Below are positions 12,394 to 23,036 of a stretch of 64,000 nucleotides of DNA, one piece after another. The notes under the pieces were generated by a model. It had not been told where the DNA came from. It saw nothing but the letters and a program-made list of their open reading frames with translations, and searched no databases. Position numbers and translations under genes: made by a program. How positions within the stretch are numbered: position 1 is the first letter of the stretch; the number at the start of each line of letters is the position of its first letter. Origin of the DNA: Catenulispora pinistramenti (GTDB taxonomy: Bacteria; Actinomycetota; Actinomycetes; Streptomycetales; Catenulisporaceae). The stretch is taken from contig NZ_JAAFYZ010000019.1 in NCBI RefSeq assembly GCF_018274385.1, positions 1 through 64,000 on the forward strand, given 5' to 3'.

Positions 12394-13449
12394 ATGCGCT
12401 CTGTCACCCGCAAGCTCGCCATCACCTCGGCGGTCGCCGCGGCCGTCCTCGGCGCCACGGTGGCGTCGAACGGCGCCGCGCTGGCCGACCCGCCGGCGGG
12501 CACCACCCCGGCCGCGACCGACATCGTCGCCGCCGGTTCGGACACCATCCAGGCGTTCGACAACGGTCTGTCGACCCAGTACAACGCGACCAGCCCGGCC
12601 TCGAAGTTCTACACCTGGGACGCGACCGGCACCTCGCCGATCACCCCGAAGACCGGCGCCACCTCGATTCCCCGGCCGAACGGTTCCGGCCAGGGCATCA
12701 CGGCGCTGAACAACAACACCAACGCCACGCTCGACATCGCCCGCTCCTCGCGCGGTCCGAACACGGGCACCGCGGACTGGTTCATCCCGTTCGCCCAGGA
12801 CGCGGTGGGCTGGGCCGGCTTCACCGGCGGCAACGCGCCGACCGACCTGACCTCGGCCGACCTGCAGGGCATCTACACCTGCAGCATCACCAACTGGAAC
12901 CAGATCACCGACGAGCCCGGCTACACCGGCCCGAACGCGACGATCGACCCGATCGTCCCGCAGTCCGGTTCCGGCACCCGTTCGTTCTTCCTGTCCGCGC
13001 TGAACATCACGGCCGCCAGCGAGCCGTGCTGGAACGCCACCACGCCGGAGGAGAACGAGGGCACCGCCTCGGTCTTCGCCGGTGACGTGAACGCCGTCTT
13101 CCCCTACTCGCTGAGCCACGCGGTCGGCCAGCTCTACGACGGCAAGGGCAGCGGCACCGACAACATCGGCGTCCTGGACGTCTTCCGCTCGATCGACGGC
13201 AACACCCAGATCGACCAGACCAACAAGGTGTGGAACGCGAACTTCCCGCTGACTTACACCCGCGAGGTCTACCACGTCGTGCGCCAGTCCGACTGGGCCG
13301 ACGCCACCGAGGGCCCGCGCCTGAAGGCCCTGCTCGACCGCTCCACCAACGGCGGCTACCTGTGTGGCACCGCCGCCAGCAGCCTGATCACCAGCTACGG
13401 CTTCCAGACGCTGGGCAACGCCTGCGGCACCCTGACCGCCGGTCAGTGA
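12394..13449 (+). CDS. Secreted PstS-like substrate-binding protein (untethered)
   Basis: A 351-aa secreted protein with a signal peptide (residues 1-31, cleavage after AALA). It has a PBP-like domain of the phosphate-binding type: ADIVAAGSDTIQAF at the start, SADLQGIYTCSITNWNQI as in PstS, and VPQSGSGTRSFF near residues 188-199 resembling the PstS phosphate-binding loop. It lacks a lipobox Cys and a C-terminal TM, so it should be released or loosely wall-bound. The ATG has a perfect AGGAGG about 7 nt upstream. It precedes a Pst-like operon but is separated from it by two terminators. The ligand is probably phosphate, which is inferred. Confidence 0.78.
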   Translation: MRSVTRKLAITSAVAAAVLGATVASNGAALADPPAGTTPAATDIVAAGSDTIQAFDNGLSTQYNATSPASKFYTWDATGTSPITPKTGATSIPRPNGSGQGITALNNNTNATLDIARSSRGPNTGTADWFIPFAQDAVGWAGFTGGNAPTDLTSADLQGIYTCSITNWNQITDEPGYTGPNATIDPIVPQSGSGTRSFFLSALNITAASEPCWNATTPEENEGTASVFAGDVNAVFPYSLSHAVGQLYDGKGSGTDNIGVLDVFRSIDGNTQIDQTNKVWNANFPLTYTREVYHVVRQSDWADATEGPRLKALLDRSTNGGYLCGTAASSLITSYGFQTLGNACGTLTAGQ

Positions 13450-13547: not shown

Positions 13548-13601
13548 CTCTTCCTCCCTTCCCCATGTCCGCCCTCTATCCCTGACTTCCAAGGAGTCCC
13601 C

Positions 13602-14186
13602 ATGAACCGCACCGCTGTGCGCACGGTGGCTGCCGCCGCCGCCCTCGCCGCGACCGCCATCGCCCTGCCGTCGGCCAGCGCGACCGGCACCCCGGCTTCC
13701 GGTTCGGTCGCCTTGACCGCCTCCAACGCCTTCCTCACCTCGGCGCTCCGCTCCGGCATCGCGGCGGTGCCGCTGCCGACGGCGACCGGGTCCTACAACA
13801 GCGCCACCGGTGCGACCGCGACCTTCCCGGTCACCGGTGGCAACGCCGTGCTGGCGCGCTACTACGGCAGCGTGACGCTCGGCGGCGGGATCGCCTTCGC
13901 GGACGCGCTGACCGGCAAGATCGTCTGCTTCCACCAGGTCTCCCTCAGCGCCCGCAGCCAGGAGCTGTCCGCGGTGCCCGACGGCGGCACCACGCCGGTG
14001 AACCTGTTCGAGTTCGGCGGCGACACCGTGATCAGCAACATCGGCGTCAAGCCGGAGACCCTGACCGGTGACGCGGACATCCCGGCCGACGGCGCCGCCT
14101 ATCTGGACCAGGCGCTGGGCACCACGTTCTTCACCGCCAACCAGGCTGTCGGCTCCCTGAGCGCCACCTACACGCCGGCCTCCTGA
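13602..14186 (+). CDS. Small secreted protein, unrecognised
   Basis: A 194-aa protein with a clear Sec signal peptide (residues 1-28, ASA cleavage) and a mature part rich in Thr, Gly, Val and Ala, predicted mostly beta. Segments such as GSYNSATGATATFPVTGG and GSVTLGGGIAF have the rhythm of HtaA-like beta domains, but the similarity is too weak to name. No membrane anchor or sorting motif. AAGGAG lies 6 nt before the ATG. It has its own terminator and sits between the free binding protein and the tethered transport operon, so a role at the same cell surface is likely but unproven. Confidence 0.7.
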   Translation: MNRTAVRTVAAAAALAATAIALPSASATGTPASGSVALTASNAFLTSALRSGIAAVPLPTATGSYNSATGATATFPVTGGNAVLARYYGSVTLGGGIAFADALTGKIVCFHQVSLSARSQELSAVPDGGTTPVNLFEFGGDTVISNIGVKPETLTGDADIPADGAAYLDQALGTTFFTANQAVGSLSATYTPAS

Positions 14187-14243: not shown

Positions 14244-14350
14244 CGCGGTCGGCCACCGTTTTCGCCTTGGCCGCGTCGCGGTCGGTTCCCCGTCGCCCGC
14301 GAGCGGGCGAATGTATGCGTCCCCTGATTTTCGATCTCGGAGGTTCCTCC

Positions 14351-16957
14351 ATGTCGCCCCGTGAAGCGGGAGCCGTCCGGCGCCGCAGAGGCGTGCGCGC
14401 CTATTGTGCGGCCGTACTCGCCTGGACGGCCGCGTTCATGGCGGCCCTGGTTCTGCTGCCTCCGGGTGCGCACACCATCGCCGCGGCCCACGCTGACAGC
14501 TCGTCGGTCACCGTCCCCGGACCAGCGGTCTGGATTCCGTCCACGCAGACGTACGGCGCCAACGGCGCTGTGACGGTTTCCCAGACAACGAACCTTGTGG
14601 ACCAGATGGTTCATGTGTCCTGGACCGGTTTCACTCCCAGCAGCGGCCAGTTCGTGACGTTCACCAACCTCAACGTCCTGTACCCGGTCGCGGTCTACGA
14701 ATGCCGGGGCACGAATCCCAAGATCACCGACTGCTACGGCACGACCCACTACGGCCAGAAGGCCGCCGCCGGCTTCGCCCAGCCCAACGACGGGGCAGGC
14801 CTGGCAGCGCCTGACTTCCCCAACAACGCGGTGCCCGCGGTGACTCGTAGCGACGGCACCGGAAGCGCTGACATCGAGGTCTACACGGCGAACCAAAGCC
14901 CGTCTTTGGGCTGTGACGCGGCCAACCCGTGTTCGATCGTCGTCGAACCGAACTACGGCGGCGACTCGACCGGGATCGACAGTACGACGTCGCCCCCGGC
15001 ACCGAACTGCGCCGACCACGGGGTGGACCGCCACCCTCCCTATATGGCGACGTTCAATGGCTTTCTCCAGGTCGACCCGAACCAGAACGGCACCGGCGAG
15101 ATGTGTGCCTGGAACAACCACGTCACCATTCCGCTCTCCTTCGCCCCCGTCGCCGGCGCCTGTCCGGCCAGTGCGGCCGGCGTGTCCGCCGAGGGGATGC
15201 CGATGCTCGACCGGGCCTTGGCGCAGTGGACGGTCGGTGCCTGCCTCAACTCGGCCGATCCGGTAACCCTGCAGTACAGCAGCGATATCACCGAGCCGGA
15301 GTCGCGCAGCGACTTCTTGCAGGGCCGGGCCGGGGCTGACATGGCCTTCACCTCGCTGCCCGCCGATCCGGCGGCCAGCAGCGCGCATCCGTACACCTAT
15401 GTGCCACTGGGCAACACCGGCATCGTGATCGCGTTCTTCATCGATGACGCCCGCACGCACCTGCCCATCACCGGCGTGAAGCTGAACGCGAGATTGATCG
15501 CCAAACTGTTGACGCAGTCCTATGACGTCGAACACATCTCGACCTCGAAGATCGACATCCCGTCGGTGGCGGGGAACCCGACGTGTCTGTTCAGCGATCC
15601 GGAGTTCCTGGCGCTGAACGCCCAGACCGGTGTCACCTGGCCGAACTGCGCGGGGAACGCCATCTCCAGTCTGCCGATCGTGACGGGCGGCACGACTGAT
15701 CTGGTGACGGAGCTGACGACGTGGATCATGTCGGATCCCGACGCCGAGGCGTTCCTGGCCGGGACTCCGGATCCATGGGGCATGCACGTCGATTCCTTCT
15801 ACCAGACCTCCAAATATCCCTACCCCATCAACAGCTTCGTCTCTCAGGACGGCAGCGGCCCCGCGGGCGAACTGGGGACCGGCCTGCCCTTCCCCACCGA
15901 TCCCAACGCGGCGGATCATGACGGGGCGCATATGAAGGGCTACGAGTGGAACCCGCTCCAGGCCGGGCTCGACGACGTCGCCCGGCACATGCTGCAGGCG
16001 AACCCGACATGCATCGTCTGGCAGTACGACGCGTTCAACGGCATCCACGACAAGTGCACGGCGCAACTCGTCGGCGGCCGTGACGTGATCGCCGTCATGG
16101 ACGCCGGCCGCGCCGCGGCCTTCAACATGCCGACCGCGGCCCTGGCCAATGGTTCCGGTGCCTACGTGCCTCCGAACGCTTCCAGCATGAAGTCGGCAGC
16201 CCTGGACTACGTGACCGATCCCAAGACCGGGACCCAGTCGCTTCCGTGGGGCAGCGCCCACACCGGCTACTCGGGCGACACCAACGCCTACGCGTTGACC
16301 GTCCCGACATACGCGATGGCTCCGACCTCCGGGGTCCCGGCGGCCAAGGCCACCACGATCGCCGATCTCCTGTCCGCGGTGACGGACAGCCGCAGCGGCC
16401 AGCTGTCCGGCACCCAGCCCGGCGAGCTCGCTCCCGGCTTCACGGCGAACACCCCGGCGCAGGCGGCGCAGGCGGGCGCGGCGATCGGCAGGATTCGGGC
16501 CGGCGCCGGCCCGAACGGCGGGCCGACCACGGTGACCGCCACCGGCCCGGCCACCGGCAAGCCCACCACCTCCGGCAACGAGGTGATCACCCCGGTGACG
16601 GTCACGAAGAACGGCACGCCCTCGGTCTCTTACAGCACCAGCACGCTGGGCGGCAACGGCGGGGCGAACGGCGGTGCCGACGCGGCGGACGGCGCGTCCG
16701 GTTCGTCCAAGGGCGCGGCTGGAGCCTCCGGGAGCAGCGGCCCGACCCGCAACCTGAGCGGCTCCACCACGGCGGCGGCGGTGGGTAGTGCCACTGCTGA
16801 CAAGGCCGGGGTCGGCCGGCTGATCCTGCCGATCCTGCTGATCATCGGCCTGGTCCTGGTGGCCGCCGGTCCCGCGGCGCTGGTCCTGTCCTCCGGCGGC
16901 GTGAGCACCAAGCTTCGGGCGCTGTGGCCGCAGGCCAAGCGGCGTTTCGGGCGGTGA
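14351..16957 (+). CDS. Membrane-tethered PstS-related protein with long linker
   Basis: An 868-aa surface protein. A basic N-terminus and hydrophobic stretch (residues about 20-48) act as signal peptide. An N-terminal beta-rich region of about 230 residues comes next, then a degenerate PBP-like domain (MLDRALAQW, GADMAFTSLPADP, LPIVTGGTTDLVTELTTWI). A Gly/Thr/Ser-rich linker spans about 716-815, then one TM helix (LILPILLIIGLVLVAAGPAA) and a basic cytoplasmic tail ending KRRFGR. No LPxTG-type motif. The ATG at 14351 has GGAGG 8-9 nt upstream; that SD lies in the palindrome GGAGGTTCCTCC. It is the first gene of the operon and its stop is 4 nt before pstC, implying a role in substrate capture. 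Confidence 0.72.
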   Translation: MSPREAGAVRRRRGVRAYCAAVLAWTAAFMAALVLLPPGAHTIAAAHADSSSVTVPGPAVWIPSTQTYGANGAVTVSQTTNLVDQMVHVSWTGFTPSSGQFVTFTNLNVLYPVAVYECRGTNPKITDCYGTTHYGQKAAAGFAQPNDGAGLAAPDFPNNAVPAVTRSDGTGSADIEVYTANQSPSLGCDAANPCSIVVEPNYGGDSTGIDSTTSPPAPNCADHGVDRHPPYMATFNGFLQVDPNQNGTGEMCAWNNHVTIPLSFAPVAGACPASAAGVSAEGMPMLDRALAQWTVGACLNSADPVTLQYSSDITEPESRSDFLQGRAGADMAFTSLPADPAASSAHPYTYVPLGNTGIVIAFFIDDARTHLPITGVKLNARLIAKLLTQSYDVEHISTSKIDIPSVAGNPTCLFSDPEFLALNAQTGVTWPNCAGNAISSLPIVTGGTTDLVTELTTWIMSDPDAEAFLAGTPDPWGMHVDSFYQTSKYPYPINSFVSQDGSGPAGELGTGLPFPTDPNAADHDGAHMKGYEWNPLQAGLDDVARHMLQANPTCIVWQYDAFNGIHDKCTAQLVGGRDVIAVMDAGRAAAFNMPTAALANGSGAYVPPNASSMKSAALDYVTDPKTGTQSLPWGSAHTGYSGDTNAYALTVPTYAMAPTSGVPAAKATTIADLLSAVTDSRSGQLSGTQPGELAPGFTANTPAQAAQAGAAIGRIRAGAGPNGGPTTVTATGPATGKPTTSGNEVITPVTVTKNGTPSVSYSTSTLGGNGGANGGADAADGASGSSKGAAGASGSSGPTRNLSGSTTAAAVGSATADKAGVGRLILPILLIIGLVLVAAGPAALVLSSGGVSTKLRALWPQAKRRFGR

Positions 16958-16961
16958 GCCG

Positions 16962-18017
16962 GTGACCACCGCCGACGCCGGCACCGAGCTGGCCGACGAC
17001 CTGTTCGGGTCGCCGCCCCAGGGCTCCGGCCCCGGGGCGGCGCCCGCCCCCGCCGACGACACCCCGATGAAGATCATCCCTGGCGTCTCGCGCGGCGACC
17101 GGGTCTTCCGGATCGCCTTCCGGGGCGCCGGCCTGTCGGTGTTCGCGATCATGGGGCTGATCGCCCTGTTCCTCATCACCCGCGGCGCGCAGGCGCTGCA
17201 CGCCACGGGCTGGTCCTTCCTGACCGAGCAGCGGTGGCAGACGGCCACGCACCGGTTCGGCGTGGGTGCCGTGCTGCCGGACGGGATCATCATCGCGGTC
17301 ATCGCGCTGGTGATCGCGGTGCCGGTGGCGCTGTCCGCGGCGCTGTGGATCTCCGAGTACGCGCCTTCCGGCCTTCGCCGGACTCTGATCTCGCTGATCG
17401 ACCTGATGGCGGCGGTGCCGAGCATCGTCTACGGGCTGTGGGGGCTGATCTTCCTCACGCCGCGCATCATCGGGTTCGAGCGCTGGGCGGCGACCCACCT
17501 CGGTGGCGTGCTGCCGTTCCTCAAGGTGCGCAACGGCGAGGTCTCCGCTTCCTACTCGCAATCGGGGTTCATCGCCGGGGTGGTGGTGGCGCTGATGATC
17601 ATCCCGATCGTCTGCTCGCTGTCCCGGGAGGTGTTCTCCCAGGCCCCGACCGGAGAGCGGGAGGGCGCCTATGCCTTGGGCGCCACGCGGTGGGGGATGG
17701 TGCGCACCGTCGTGCTGCCGTTCGGTAAGGGCGGGATGATCGGCGCGGTGATGCTGGGGTTCGGCCGGGCCATGGGTGAGACCATCGCCGTCGCGCTGAT
17801 CATCTCGCCGGTGTTCGCGATCACCTGGCATCCCCTGCAAGCCGACTCCAACTCCATCTCCTCGCTGATCGCGCTGCGATACGGCGAGTCCGACAAGCTG
17901 TCGCTGTCGGCCCTGATGGCCGCCGGGCTCGTGCTGTTCACGATCACCCTGCTGGTCAACATGGTCGCGTCCGCGATCATCGCCAGATCGCGCTCCGGCG
18001 CCGCGACCAACGAGTGA
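16962..18017 (+). CDS. pstC: Phosphate-type ABC transporter permease PstC
   Basis: A 351-aa inner-membrane subunit of a PstSCAB-type importer with about six helices. The ABC permease EAA loop is GAYALGATRWGMVRTVVLPF near residues 232-251, and DLMAAVPSIVYGLWGL is characteristic of PstC. The N-terminal 35 or so residues are Pro/Gly/Ala-rich. The GTG start lies 4 nt after the preceding stop. It pairs with PstA, and PstB further along supplies the ATPase. Confidence 0.92.
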   Translation: MTTADAGTELADDLFGSPPQGSGPGAAPAPADDTPMKIIPGVSRGDRVFRIAFRGAGLSVFAIMGLIALFLITRGAQALHATGWSFLTEQRWQTATHRFGVGAVLPDGIIIAVIALVIAVPVALSAALWISEYAPSGLRRTLISLIDLMAAVPSIVYGLWGLIFLTPRIIGFERWAATHLGGVLPFLKVRNGEVSASYSQSGFIAGVVVALMIIPIVCSLSREVFSQAPTGEREGAYALGATRWGMVRTVVLPFGKGGMIGAVMLGFGRAMGETIAVALIISPVFAITWHPLQADSNSISSLIALRYGESDKLSLSALMAAGLVLFTITLLVNMVASAIIARSRSGAATNE

Positions 18018-18033: not shown

Positions 18034-19287
18034 ATGACACTTATCGATATCGCCACGAGCAGTGGCGCGACCGGTGAGGGCACCGCGTATCTCGACGCGG
18101 CCACCGGGCAGGTCCGGGTGCGTCCCGGCGCGATCACCACCGCCGACATCGGCACTCTGGCCGGCGCCGCCGTGGGCGCGCTCGGGCTGGTCTGGCTGGT
18201 GTACGAGCGGATCATGCCGTGGTCCGGCGCACTCGGGTTCTGGCTGTGCTGGTATGTGATGTTCCTGGTCTTCTACTGGGGCATCGCGCGCACCCAGTGG
18301 GAGGCGCGTCACGTGCGGGAGAAGCTTGCCGCGGCCATGTTCACCGGCGCCGGGGTCTTCGTGCTGGTGGTACTCGTCGACCTGATCGCCTACGTGGGCT
18401 GGCGGGGAGAGAAGGCCATCGGGCATGGCAACTTCCTGACCACCGACATGCAGAAGACCGGGCCGTTGGACGGTCTGAACAGCGGCGGCATATTGCACGC
18501 GATGATCGGTTCGCTGGAGCAACTGGGTCTGGCGACCTTGTTCGCGGTGCCGCTGGGCATCGCCGCCGCGGTGTTCATGTCCGAGATCGGCGGGCGGCTG
18601 GCCCGACCGGTGCGCACCGTGGTCACGGCGATGACCGCGCTGCCCTCGATCGTGGCCGGGCTGTTCGTGCTCGGCTCGGTGATCCTGACCCTGGGCTACG
18701 ACCGCAGCGGCTTCGCCGCGTCGCTGGCGCTGACCGTGATGATGATGCCGATCGTGACCCGCGCCGCCGAAGTGGTGATCCGCATCGTGCCCAACACCTT
18801 GCGAGAGGCCTCTTACGCGCTGGGCGGGAGCCAGTGGCGCACGGTGTGGAACGTGGTGCTGCCGACCGCCCGCTCCGGTCTGACGACTGCGGTCCTGTTG
18901 GGCATGGCCCGCGCGGTGGGCGAGACCTCGCCGGTCCTGCTCACGGCCGGGTTCTCCTCCGGCAAGAACTCGAACCCGTTCAGCGGGCAGCAGGTCAGCC
19001 TGCCGCTCTACGTGTGGAACTACGTGCGTTATCCGCAAGAGAACATGAAGATCCGGGCCTTCGGCGGAGCGCTGGTGCTGATGGCCATCGTCATGATCCT
19101 GTTCGTCGCCGCGCGCATGGCCGGCGGCCGTCGACCCGGCGAGTTGTCGCGGCGTCGCCGTCGCCAGATGGCCCGTGACCGGGTCCGCATCGCCGCGACG
19201 CATCCCGCCAGGCCGCAGGCGCCGGCTGTGACTCCTGCGCCCACCGCCGCGGCAATCATCCATCCGGAACCGGAGCCAGCCTCGTGA
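18034..19287 (+). CDS. pstA: Phosphate-type ABC transporter permease PstA with extra N-terminal TMs
   Basis: A 417-aa permease. The conserved core (about residues 145-370) carries TALPSIVAGLFVLGSV and the EAA loop REASYALGGSQWRTVWNVVL. Ordinary PstA proteins are about 290 aa. Here roughly 130 extra N-terminal residues contain three additional hydrophobic segments, and the basic Pro/Ala-rich C-terminus is also extended. Its TGA overlaps the GTG of the tethered PstS gene (GTGA), so the two are translationally coupled. Confidence 0.9.
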   Translation: MTLIDIATSSGATGEGTAYLDAATGQVRVRPGAITTADIGTLAGAAVGALGLVWLVYERIMPWSGALGFWLCWYVMFLVFYWGIARTQWEARHVREKLAAAMFTGAGVFVLVVLVDLIAYVGWRGEKAIGHGNFLTTDMQKTGPLDGLNSGGILHAMIGSLEQLGLATLFAVPLGIAAAVFMSEIGGRLARPVRTVVTAMTALPSIVAGLFVLGSVILTLGYDRSGFAASLALTVMMMPIVTRAAEVVIRIVPNTLREASYALGGSQWRTVWNVVLPTARSGLTTAVLLGMARAVGETSPVLLTAGFSSGKNSNPFSGQQVSLPLYVWNYVRYPQENMKIRAFGGALVLMAIVMILFVAARMAGGRRPGELSRRRRRQMARDRVRIAATHPARPQAPAVTPAPTAAAIIHPEPEPAS

Positions 19288-21119
19288 AAACAGCCCGCAT
19301 CCTCAGACCCCGAATCCCGGTCTGGCTGGCGGCCGGCCTGGCCGTGACCGCGGCCCTGGCCGCCGCGCTCACTCCGGCCACCCCGGCGCACGCCGCCACC
19401 GCGTTGAGCGGGTCCGGCTCCTCGTGGAGCGGTCCGGCGCTGGACCAGTGGCGCCGGGACATCCTGCCGCAGGGCATCAACATCAACTTCTCGGCCAACG
19501 GCTCGGCGGCCGGCCGGACCGACTGGGAAAGCGGTCTGGACGACTTCACGGCTTCCGACGTTCCGTTCCGCAGCACGAGAGACCAGGGCGTGAGCGGTTC
19601 GAACACCGGCGCGGGGAACATCGAGAACCCGACCTGGCGGTACTCCTACGTTCCGGTGACCGCCGGCGGCACGACCTTCATGTACAACCTGAAGATCGGC
19701 GGCAAGCAGGTCACCGACCTGCGCCTGTCGCCCGACGTGCTGGTCGACATCTTCACCAACCAGATCACCATGTGGGACGACCCGCGGATCAAGGCCGACT
19801 ACCCGGGGAACCTGCCGCACGAGCCGATCACCCCGGTGGTGCGCTCCGACGGTTCCGGTGCGACCGCGCAGTGGACCCGCTACATGGAGCACACGCACAA
19901 GGCGCAGTGGGACGCGTATTGCAACGCGATCAACGGTGTCTCCTGCGGTGATTACACGGAGTTCTTCCCGACCCCGCCCAGCAGCAACATGCACTCCGAG
20001 AACGGCTCGGACGTGGTGGCCGGTTTCATCATGTCCCCGCAAGGCGAGGGCGCCATCGGCTACGACGAGTACGCCTACGCCAAGCTCAACAACTGGCCGG
20101 TCGTCAAGGTCCTGAACCCCGCCGGCTACTACTCCATCCCGACCGCGTCGAACGTCGCGATCGCGCTCACCGCCGCGAAGATCCGCGGCGTGGACGACGA
20201 CACCCCGCCGAGCGACCCGAACTATCTGCAGCAGAACCTCGACGCGGTCTACACGATGACGGACCCCCGGTCGTACCCGATCTCCAGCTACAGCTACATC
20301 ATCGTGCCCCGCGATACCGGGACGCTGCCGGCGCTGCCCAGGGCGAGCGACGACCACGGCGCCGCGCTGTCGAAGTACGCCGCCTACATCCTGTGCGGCG
20401 GGCAGGCCGAGGCCGACCAACTCGGGTACTCGCCGATCCCGCGGAACCTGGTGAAAGGCGGGATGCTCCAGGTGTCGCACATCCCCGGGCAGCAGTCCGG
20501 CGTGGATCCCAACACCCTGTCCAACTGCCCGAACCCGACCTTCAACGCCTCCGGCCAGCTGACGGTGCTCGCCGACGCGCCGCAGCCGAGCCCCTGTGAC
20601 AAGGCCGGCACCCCGCTGAACTGCACGGTCGGGACTTCCGGCGGCGGCTCGGGCGGGTCGGCCGGCGGCTCCTCCGGCGGTTCCTCGGGCGGCAAGAAGG
20701 GCAGCACCACCGGCGGCCACTCGACGTCTGGCGGGACCTCTGGCGGAGCCAACGGCGGTTCGGGGTCGAACGGCGGGAACACCGGCGGTGCCGGCGGTAC
20801 CGGCGGGACCACCGGAGGCGCGGTCGGCGGGACCACGGGCGGCACCACCGGCGGTGGTGCCGGTGGGATCGACCCGGTCACCGGGCAGACCCTCGACGAC
20901 TCCAGCGGCGGGGACAGCGGCGGGTCCAGCGGAGGAGCCACGCAGGTGGTGGCCGACGTGCCACAGCACCGTGATCCGAAGCTGATGGCCGGTCTCACGG
21001 CGTTGGAACTGCTGGCGGTGGTGACCATCCCGCCGATGCTCGGCAACATGTTGGTGCGCCGCCGGAGATTGGCCGCGGCCAATGCCGCGGACCGGGGGGA
21101 ATCGGAGCCGAAGCTGTGA
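19284..21119 (+). CDS. pstS: Membrane-tethered PstS phosphate-binding protein
   Basis: A 611-aa surface protein. Signal peptide 1-38 (AHA). PstS domain about 40-440, with LSGSGSSWSGPALDQW near the N-terminus and the phosphate-loop motif RSDGSGAT at 187-194. Then about 100 residues of Gly/Ser/Thr repeats (450-552), one TM helix (about 570-590) and an RRRR cytoplasmic tail. Typical PstS proteins are 320-370 aa lipoproteins; this one has no lipobox and is anchored by its C-terminal helix. No sortase sorting motif is visible. Its GTG overlaps the pstA stop, and its stop overlaps the next gene's start. Confidence 0.86.
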   Translation: MKTARILRPRIPVWLAAGLAVTAALAAALTPATPAHAATALSGSGSSWSGPALDQWRRDILPQGININFSANGSAAGRTDWESGLDDFTASDVPFRSTRDQGVSGSNTGAGNIENPTWRYSYVPVTAGGTTFMYNLKIGGKQVTDLRLSPDVLVDIFTNQITMWDDPRIKADYPGNLPHEPITPVVRSDGSGATAQWTRYMEHTHKAQWDAYCNAINGVSCGDYTEFFPTPPSSNMHSENGSDVVAGFIMSPQGEGAIGYDEYAYAKLNNWPVVKVLNPAGYYSIPTASNVAIALTAAKIRGVDDDTPPSDPNYLQQNLDAVYTMTDPRSYPISSYSYIIVPRDTGTLPALPRASDDHGAALSKYAAYILCGGQAEADQLGYSPIPRNLVKGGMLQVSHIPGQQSGVDPNTLSNCPNPTFNASGQLTVLADAPQPSPCDKAGTPLNCTVGTSGGGSGGSAGGSSGGSSGGKKGSTTGGHSTSGGTSGGANGGSGSNGGNTGGAGGTGGTTGGAVGGTTGGTTGGGAGGIDPVTGQTLDDSSGGDSGGSSGGATQVVADVPQHRDPKLMAGLTALELLAVVTIPPMLGNMLVRRRRLAAANAADRGESEPKL

Positions 21120-22117
21120 CCGCGCCCACCACGTCGCTGGACCCGGAGCTGGACTCCGGGACCGAGGCCGTCGGCACCGCGGAGGCGGATCCCGAGGAGA
21201 AGCAGGCCACTGTGACGCTTGAGTCTCCGGAGCCGGAGTCGGAGGCTCAGCCGGCCCGGCCCCGGCAGTCGGCCGCCGCTGTGCGCGCCGCGCTGCGCGC
21301 CGGCCGGGGCCGGCGGATCGTGCGGACGGTGGCCACGGCGGCGAGCCTGCTGTCCGTGCTCATCCTCGGGTTCGCCGGCTACGCCTACGGATTGTCCCGG
21401 CTCCAGGAACAGCACAGTCAGGCCAACCTCTACCGGGTGCTGGCCGCTGAGCTCGCGCAGGCGACGGCGCCGGTCAGCCCGTCGCCGGACGGGGTCCCGC
21501 TGGCCATCATGGACATCCCGGCGATCGGGGTGCACCAGGCGGTCATCGTCGAGGGCACGACCGGCGCCGACCTGGCCAAGGGGCCCGGGCACCGCCGGGA
21601 CACCGTGCTGCCCGGCCAGCCCGGGGTCAGCGTGGTGATGGGGCGGAGCGGGACGTTCGGCGCGCCGTTCGCCGCGCTGACCGGGCTCCAGGTCGGCGAC
21701 AAGATCGACTTCACCACCGGCGAGGGCACCTTCACCTACACCGTGAACGCCTTCGGCCAGGGGTCCAAGCCGATCGTCGACCCCTTCAAGAACCGGCTGG
21801 TGCTGGCCACCGGCGACTCGACCTGGATCCCGACCCACGCCGTCTATGTCGGTGCGCACCTGGACGGCGAGCCCGCGGGCGGCTCCGGACAGCGCGGTAC
21901 GCAAAGCGACCTGGACAAGCCGCTGGCCTCCGACACCGACGCCTGGCCCACATTGCAGCTGTGGGCGCTGGCCCTGGCCCTGGCGGTGGCCGCGACGGTC
22001 GGGCTGAGCGTGGTGTGGAACCGGCGCGCCGTCTACCTGTCCATGGCGCCGGTGCTGGCCGCGCTGCTGTGGTGCGTGTACGAGAACGCCGCCATCTTGC
22101 TGCCGAACCTCAACTGA
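21116..22117 (+). CDS. Catalytically dead sortase-fold membrane protein
   Basis: A 333-aa protein: Glu/Pro-rich cytoplasmic N-terminus, TM helix about 70-92, extracytoplasmic sortase-like domain about 128-248, then two more TM helices (about 281-300 and 306-322). The domain follows class C/E sortases closely ([14 protein letters not shown], then [38 protein letters not shown]). At the catalytic positions, however, the expected His of GHR is R177 (MGRSG), and the Cys of TLxTC is G233 (LVLATG). The only Cys, C320, is in the last TM. A transpeptidase role is therefore unlikely; a structural or sensing role in the Pst complex is inferred. It is coupled to pstS by a 4-nt overlap. Confidence 0.8.
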
Positions 22118-22130
22118 ACCTGGGACCACG

Positions 22131-23036
22131 ATGACCGAGATAGAAGAGCACGGCGGGGTGGCGACGGCCTCGGCCGCGGACGCCCCCACCGAGCAGCTGC
22201 CGCCGGTTCCGCCCGGCCCCGGCTCGGCCGCTGGTCCGGACGGGGACGGGGCCGTCGGCCGCCTGTCCAGCCTGGAGACCCGCGACCTGTCGGCCTGGTT
22301 CGGCGACCACAAGGTGCTGGAGCGGGTGTCGCTCACCATGGCGCCCGGCGAGGTGACGGCCCTGATCGGGCCGTCCGGCTGCGGGAAGTCCACGTATCTG
22401 CGGATCCTGAACCGCATGCACGAGATGGTGAAGTCGGCGCAGCTGGCCGGGCAGGTGCTGCTGGACGGCGCCGACATCTACTCGCCGGGCCGGCGCCCGG
22501 CGGACATCCGGGCCCGGGTGGGCATGGTGTTCCAGCGCCCGAACCCGTTCCCGGCGATGTCCATCTACGACAACGTGGTCAGCGGTCTGAAACTGGCCGG
22601 GATCAGGGCCAACAAGGCGCGGCGTGACGAGCTGGTGGAGACCAGCCTGACCCAGGCCGGTCTGTGGATCGAGGTCCGCAACCGGCTCCGCGCGCCCGGC
22701 GGCGCGCTGTCCGGCGGCCAGCAGCAGCGGCTGTGCATCGCCCGCTCGCTGGCGGTGGAGCCGGACGTGCTGCTGATGGACGAGCCCTGCTCCGCCCTGG
22801 ACCCGACCTCCACCCGCCGGGTCGAGGAGACCATCGCCGACCTGCGCGGCCGGCTGACGATCGTGATCGTCACCCACAACATGCAGCAGGCCGCGCGGGT
22901 CTCGCAGAGCTGCGCGTTCTTCCTGGCCACGCACGACACGCCGGGGCGGATCGTGGAGGCCGGGCCGACGCGGCAGCTGTTCGAGGACCCGCAGGACGAG
23001 CGGACCTCGGACTACGTGAACGGCCGGTTCGGCTAG
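22131..23036 (+). CDS. pstB: Phosphate-type ABC transporter ATPase PstB
   Basis: A 301-aa ATPase that powers the PstCA channel. Walker A is GPSGCGKST, the signature [16 protein letters not shown], Walker [14 protein letters not shown], and the switch His is in [17 protein letters not shown] after Walker A is characteristic of PstB. The N-terminal 55 or so residues are an Ala/Pro-rich extension. It is the last gene of the operon, followed by a strong terminator. No phoU gene lies nearby. Confidence 0.94.

Follow-up and report, generated by a model that had tools for sequence, protein, structure and literature searches.

What is a sortase-like protein without its active site doing inside a transporter operon? 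The window analysed here, a 64,000-nucleotide stretch of the Catenulispora pinistramenti genome, encodes a protein that a first-pass annotation had read as a sortase fold of class C/E devoid of the catalytic His and Cys, and for which it had proposed a binding or scaffold role in place of transpeptidation. The operon context went unnamed in that annotation, and it is the informative part. Genes that overlap or nearly touch one another follow in the order pstS1, small secreted protein, BigS, pstC, pstA, pstS2, pseudosortase, pstB:

12394..13449, + strand: PstS1, a secreted PstS-like binding protein with no membrane anchor
13599..14186, + strand: small secreted protein of 195 aa, no family match
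14315..16957, + strand: BigS, 880 aa, the marker of the pseudosortase operon type
16962..18017, + strand: PstC permease (TIGR02138, 250 bits; cut-off 196)
18034..19287, + strand: PstA permease (TIGR00974, 216 bits; cut-off 193)
19284..21119, + strand: PstS2, a PstS-type binding protein of 611 aa with a long Gly/Ser-rich linker, a C-terminal transmembrane (TM) helix and a basic tail
21116..22117, + strand: pseudosortase, GTG start, 333 aa, sortase barrel at about residues 128-250
22131..23036, + strand: PstB ATPase (TIGR00972, 342.2 bits, just under the cut-off of 343.2)

A Pst-type operon with an embedded sortase-like gene

The start of the pseudosortase gene overlaps the pstS2 stop (GTGA), and pstB begins 13 nt 3' of it. 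BigS has no Pfam family match; by profile and model, it comprises an N-terminal beta-sandwich, a PstS-fold binding domain and a C-terminal TM helix. PstS2 reaches 164 bits against TIGR00975 (cut-off 205). Scored against the phosphate ligands of E. coli PstS, it keeps S47, S74, D92, R187, D189, S191 and G192, with A193 in place of Thr141; across the PstS2 family, the Asp56 position is D or E and the Thr141 position is variable. Since most phosphate ligands are kept, the substrate of the transporter is likely an oxyanion of the phosphate type. PstC, PstA and PstB look like ordinary importer parts, and the operon encodes a complete PstC/A/B transporter together with three PstS-like binding proteins, two of them (PstS2 and BigS) membrane-tethered. 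The small secreted protein (13599-14186) is kept in the operon copies of Catenulispora and Kitasatospora.

The same genome has a separate pst operon, pstS-pstC-pstA-pstB, with no sortase between its genes and with a perfect PHO box (GTTCACC-N4-GTTCACC; L190:6484-6501, contig C12) about 90 bases upstream of pstS. The pseudosortase operon resembles such a PstSCAB importer in its PstC and PstA, which exceed the NCBIfam cut-offs, in its PstB, which narrowly misses its own, and in the mostly kept PstS2 ligands. It differs by its three PstS-like proteins, two of them TM-tethered, by the additional pseudosortase and by the lack of any PHO box above chance near the operon start, for which reason we rejected PHO regulation of this operon. 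A sortase-family gene (G000:C12:11973-12398, L004) lies some 6 kb away from the canonical pst operon, probably by coincidence.

The protein has a sortase fold and is nearest to class E

The Pfam sortase family PF04203 matches residues 132-213 of the pseudosortase with 52 bits (cut-off 26.6; E 7.6e-14), the best NCBIfam model is that of class E sortases (NF033747; E 1.8e-18, 67.2 bits, below the cut-off of 160), and the best sequence relatives in the PDB are the class E sortases 5go5/5go6 (E 3e-13). An AlphaFold2 model built from 72 orthologues (mean pLDDT 88.7) overlays on sortases, which are the only top matches in Foldseek: 4d70 of class D comes first (E 3e-11), followed by 5go6 of class E (E 6e-10). 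Judged from sequence and model, the protein belongs to the sortase fold superfamily, with homology far beyond chance. The initial assignment to class C/E thus holds for the fold and for class E, the nearest class by sequence; class C proved much weaker. In the model, a long N-terminal helix (53-114) includes the N-terminal TM segment and two TM helices (274-300 and 303-327) stand at the C-terminus, where a conserved LLPN is found. This predicts three membrane helices in total and is a small correction to the earlier layout: the C-terminal end has two helices, not one.

With class E sortases such as SrtE1 of Streptomyces coelicolor or 5go5/5go6 of S. avermitilis, the pseudosortase shares the barrel, the GPGH and PG[QE]xG signatures, an N-terminal membrane helix and an actinobacterial range (PMC5148588). 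Unlike them, it has neither the catalytic His, Cys and Arg nor the LAXTG-reading Tyr of the beta3/beta4 loop, it adds the two C-terminal TM helices, it sits in a transporter operon and it scores 67 bits where the class model asks for 160. Among the closest intact relatives found are sortases with a C-terminal membrane region ending in LLP[AS] (L148, L150-L152, L158, L160, L163 and L168), from the same phylum and other classes. Their domain layout is the same by alignment, and they may possibly resemble the ancestor of the pseudosortase; however, they have their own His, Cys and Arg, and those checked with long flanks lie without PstS, PstC or PstA.

The catalytic residues are missing in every orthologue

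Alignment with 5go5/5go6 sets MGRSGTFG over the catalytic AGHRRTYG and LATGD over LTTCE, and hence R177 in the His column and G233 in the Cys column, just as first proposed. The third catalytic residue, an Arg that had gone unmentioned, corresponds to A242, and the column of the class E substrate Tyr to R160; positions 160 and 177 align with the substrate Tyr229 and the catalytic His251 of SrtE1. The sole Cys, C320, does sit in the last membrane helix, so the barrel offers no alternative His/Cys pair, and we rule out this possibility.

Is this a peculiarity of one protein? Among 103 orthologues (those with scores over 200 bits), the His column holds R in 97 and K in 6, and the Cys column reads A in 64, G in 20, S in 12, T in 4 and V in 3, with no Cys at all. 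The checks proposed in the first-pass annotation thus turned out in its favour: position 177 is invariably Arg or Lys, and position 233, though not itself fixed, is never Cys. The catalytic Arg is absent from 103/103 orthologues and present in 36 of 37 intact sortases, a comparison set selected for having His and Cys. With His, Cys and Arg jointly missing in all 103, it is very unlikely that any member of the Pst-linked family acts as a transpeptidase by the known mechanism, in agreement with the initial proposal. By every catalytic feature tested, these proteins appear to keep the sortase frame without being sortase enzymes.

The class E substrate Tyr is lost as well. Column 160, Tyr in 30/37 intact sortases, is R in 74 and L in 20 of the dead proteins, with no Y among those counted and R, L or V in nearly all. 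At least two of positions 160, 161 and 177 are Arg or Lys in 98/103 dead proteins versus 0/37 intact ones; R161 is found in 97/103, and R227 in 94/103 versus 13/37 intact sortases. Positions R161, S172, R177 and P239 are conserved specifically in the dead family. Judged from these few columns and from homology, the groove would now be rich in Arg and Lys. Overall, however, the barrel carries a slight negative charge (mean net charge -2; -4 in the window protein) and is not more positive than that of intact sortases.

A single clade tied to a transporter

How widespread is the dead protein? A search of 60 relatives returned full-length orthologues from most Catenulispora genomes, from two genomes of the same family and from four of another family of the order, along with a second, more distant copy in seven Catenulispora genomes. 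A scan of the genome collection confirmed 333 related stretches, of which 80 loci were kept; these include Kitasatospora, Frankia, Dactylosporangium, Cryobacterium, Microbacterium, Nocardioides, Jiangella, Actinophytocola and Acidimicrobiaceae, among others. No plasmid-borne copies were found. A tree of 88 rows groups the dead proteins of the Pst-linked set, with L147 and L149 as the two earliest dead branches, in a single clade (support 99/92) that spans the Actinomycetota and stands apart from the intact sortases. This rules out independent losses per lineage for the Pst-linked set. Two further rows lack the His/Cys pair: L165 is truncated, and L166 has the Cys and an Asp for the His.

Whole-gene dN/dS among Catenulispora species (about 0.55, with low dS) is uninformative, and constraint is therefore argued from the wide alignment and from the barrel, where the closest pair shows a dN of 0.017 against a dS of 0.059. 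Read in this way, the sequences describe a conserved pseudoenzyme, with a catalytic loss common to orthologues under constraint.

The linkage to the transporter is strict. Genes of the transporter operon are present at 80/80 scan loci, with PstA, PstB or PstC at 77/80, and each of the 48 loci that exceed 20.5 kb has both BigS and pstB. When 396 genomes were sampled evenly across the phylum, nine had BigS, and these same nine are the ones with a strong-scoring dead sortase. The tenth strong sortase match (genome G325) comes with its triad intact and without BigS; in genome G415, a more diverged dead copy is accompanied by a complete set of pst genes and a weak match to BigS. Conversely, none of five intact relatives for which long flanks were available has PstS, PstC or PstA as a neighbour, and no member with an intact triad was found in the Pst-linked family. 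The 80/80 loci, the co-occurrence with BigS and the placement of intact relatives elsewhere together indicate that the dead state goes hand in hand with the transporter. Between lineages, the layout of BigS/PstS2 and the order of the genes differ.

Sorting signals and surface proteins around the operon

The C-termini of PstS2 and BigS each consist of a TM helix, usually followed by a basic tail. In PstS2 this is the layout of a sorting signal; the PstS2 tails have no invariant motif. The first-pass annotation had seen no LPxTG-like motif in the neighbouring proteins. This is correct for the window, where LAxTG and LPxTG are both absent from the neighbours, but does not extend to the family: LAxTG/LPxTG proteins occur in the operon region of 17/98 orthologous loci, including three Microbacteriaceae PstS2 proteins (L087, L091 and L099) with LAETG, LPDTG or LADTG directly before the TM helix. 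These may be remnants of a sorting signal or chance matches. Close relatives have LAxxGW, and with only three Microbacteriaceae on one side and LAxxGW in nearby species on the other, we do not claim the motif as proof that the pseudosortase reads a sorting signal.

At 44 loci, homologues of WxL-interacting proteins (PF06030) are encoded close to the pseudosortase, and at 58 the same is true of Big_3_5/WxL-like proteins; the window operon has no WxL or WxL-interacting-protein gene. PF06030, Ig-like and WxL-like proteins are encoded between pstS1 and the pseudosortase in L043:10733-13653, L044, L046 and L090:7343-9890, where a WxL-like surface system of actinobacteria appears linked to a Pst-type transporter. 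A transglycosylase-like gene is found anywhere in the retrieved stretch at 12 loci, with an SLT_2 domain in the L123 copy, and at most 5 kb downstream of the pseudosortase start in L080, L082, L100, L101, L123, L133 and L134.

What might the pseudosortase do?

Of the readings left, a binding or scaffold role fits best. We put a probability of roughly 60% on the following account: an ancestral sortase lost all three catalytic residues once, in the common ancestor of the family, and one specialised ABC transporter of the Pst type took it over as an accessory subunit in the membrane. Its barrel would lie outside the membrane beside PstC and PstA, where the Arg/Lys-rich groove that once received sorting signals would grip without cutting, holding the juxtamembrane tails of PstS2 and BigS or an anionic ligand. 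Such holding could organise or gate the delivery of substrate to the permease. Among the candidates for what is held (the PstS2/BigS tails, an anion or WxL-like proteins), we prefer the tails. Against a holder we count the acidic barrel overall, the lack of an invariant PstS2 tail motif and the varying BigS/PstS2 layout and gene order.

Alternatively, the pocket might be a receptor for anions: R177 and R160/R161 would bind extracellular phosphate, a phosphorylated polymer of the wall or some other oxyanion, and the anchor of three helices would relay this to the permease, making the protein a sensor and not a scaffold. The fixed Arg/Lys at 177, the prevalence of R161 and R227 and the phosphate-type binding proteins with most ligands kept as partners would fit such a receptor, but the barrel has gained no net positive charge, and we regard this reading as rather unlikely. 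A little less probable still is that the pseudosortase docks the WxL-like and Ig-like (Big_3_5) surface proteins and WxL-interacting proteins, with the Pst-type ABC part powering their assembly instead of uptake. The many loci encoding such proteins, and the lytic transglycosylase-like genes near some of them, are in line with docking; the window operon, however, does without either WxL gene type, and its PstC, PstA and PstB resemble importer components. We give very little credence to a residual enzyme that uses other residues of the old pocket as a cysteine-independent hydrolase or transferase: R161, S172, R177 and P239 are newly conserved under strong constraint, yet the dead orthologues have no conserved barrel Cys, column 233 varies between five residues and nothing among the conserved positions points to a new acid/base-nucleophile set. 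A local pseudogene or alignment error, for which only the missing triad speaks, is refuted by the orthologue set, with its invariant residues across Actinomycetota classes, low barrel dN relative to dS and intact frames.

Whether as holder or as sensor, the pseudosortase thus probably serves its transporter by holding or sensing something, and not as an enzyme. More tentatively, and at somewhat less than even odds, we suggest a family of ABC importers with a dedicated extracytoplasmic pseudoenzyme subunit. In it, a sortase barrel that once cut sorting signals would now hold membrane-tethered binding proteins uncut, or else sense an anion; three proteins of PstS fold would serve a single permease, and the operons of many lineages would add surface proteins of the WxL-like kind.

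Relation to known systems

Many pseudosortase operons resemble the clusters of WxL and WxL-interacting proteins (PF13731, PF06030) in encoding PF06030 and WxL-like/Ig-like proteins; those clusters, as described (PMC10599100), are not known to centre on a Pst-type transporter or a dead sortase. No description of a sortase pseudoenzyme or of a pst-linked sortase was found in the literature searched, which covered few subscription papers. Class E sortases and Pst transporters were already known, and the proposed pseudoenzyme subunit is, as far as that literature goes, the new part.

If confirmed, this would be a case of a wall-anchoring enzyme recruited as a transporter subunit, and automatic pipelines that label such genes 'sortase' would misname hundreds of them. 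It would also define a second Pst-type system beside the canonical pst.
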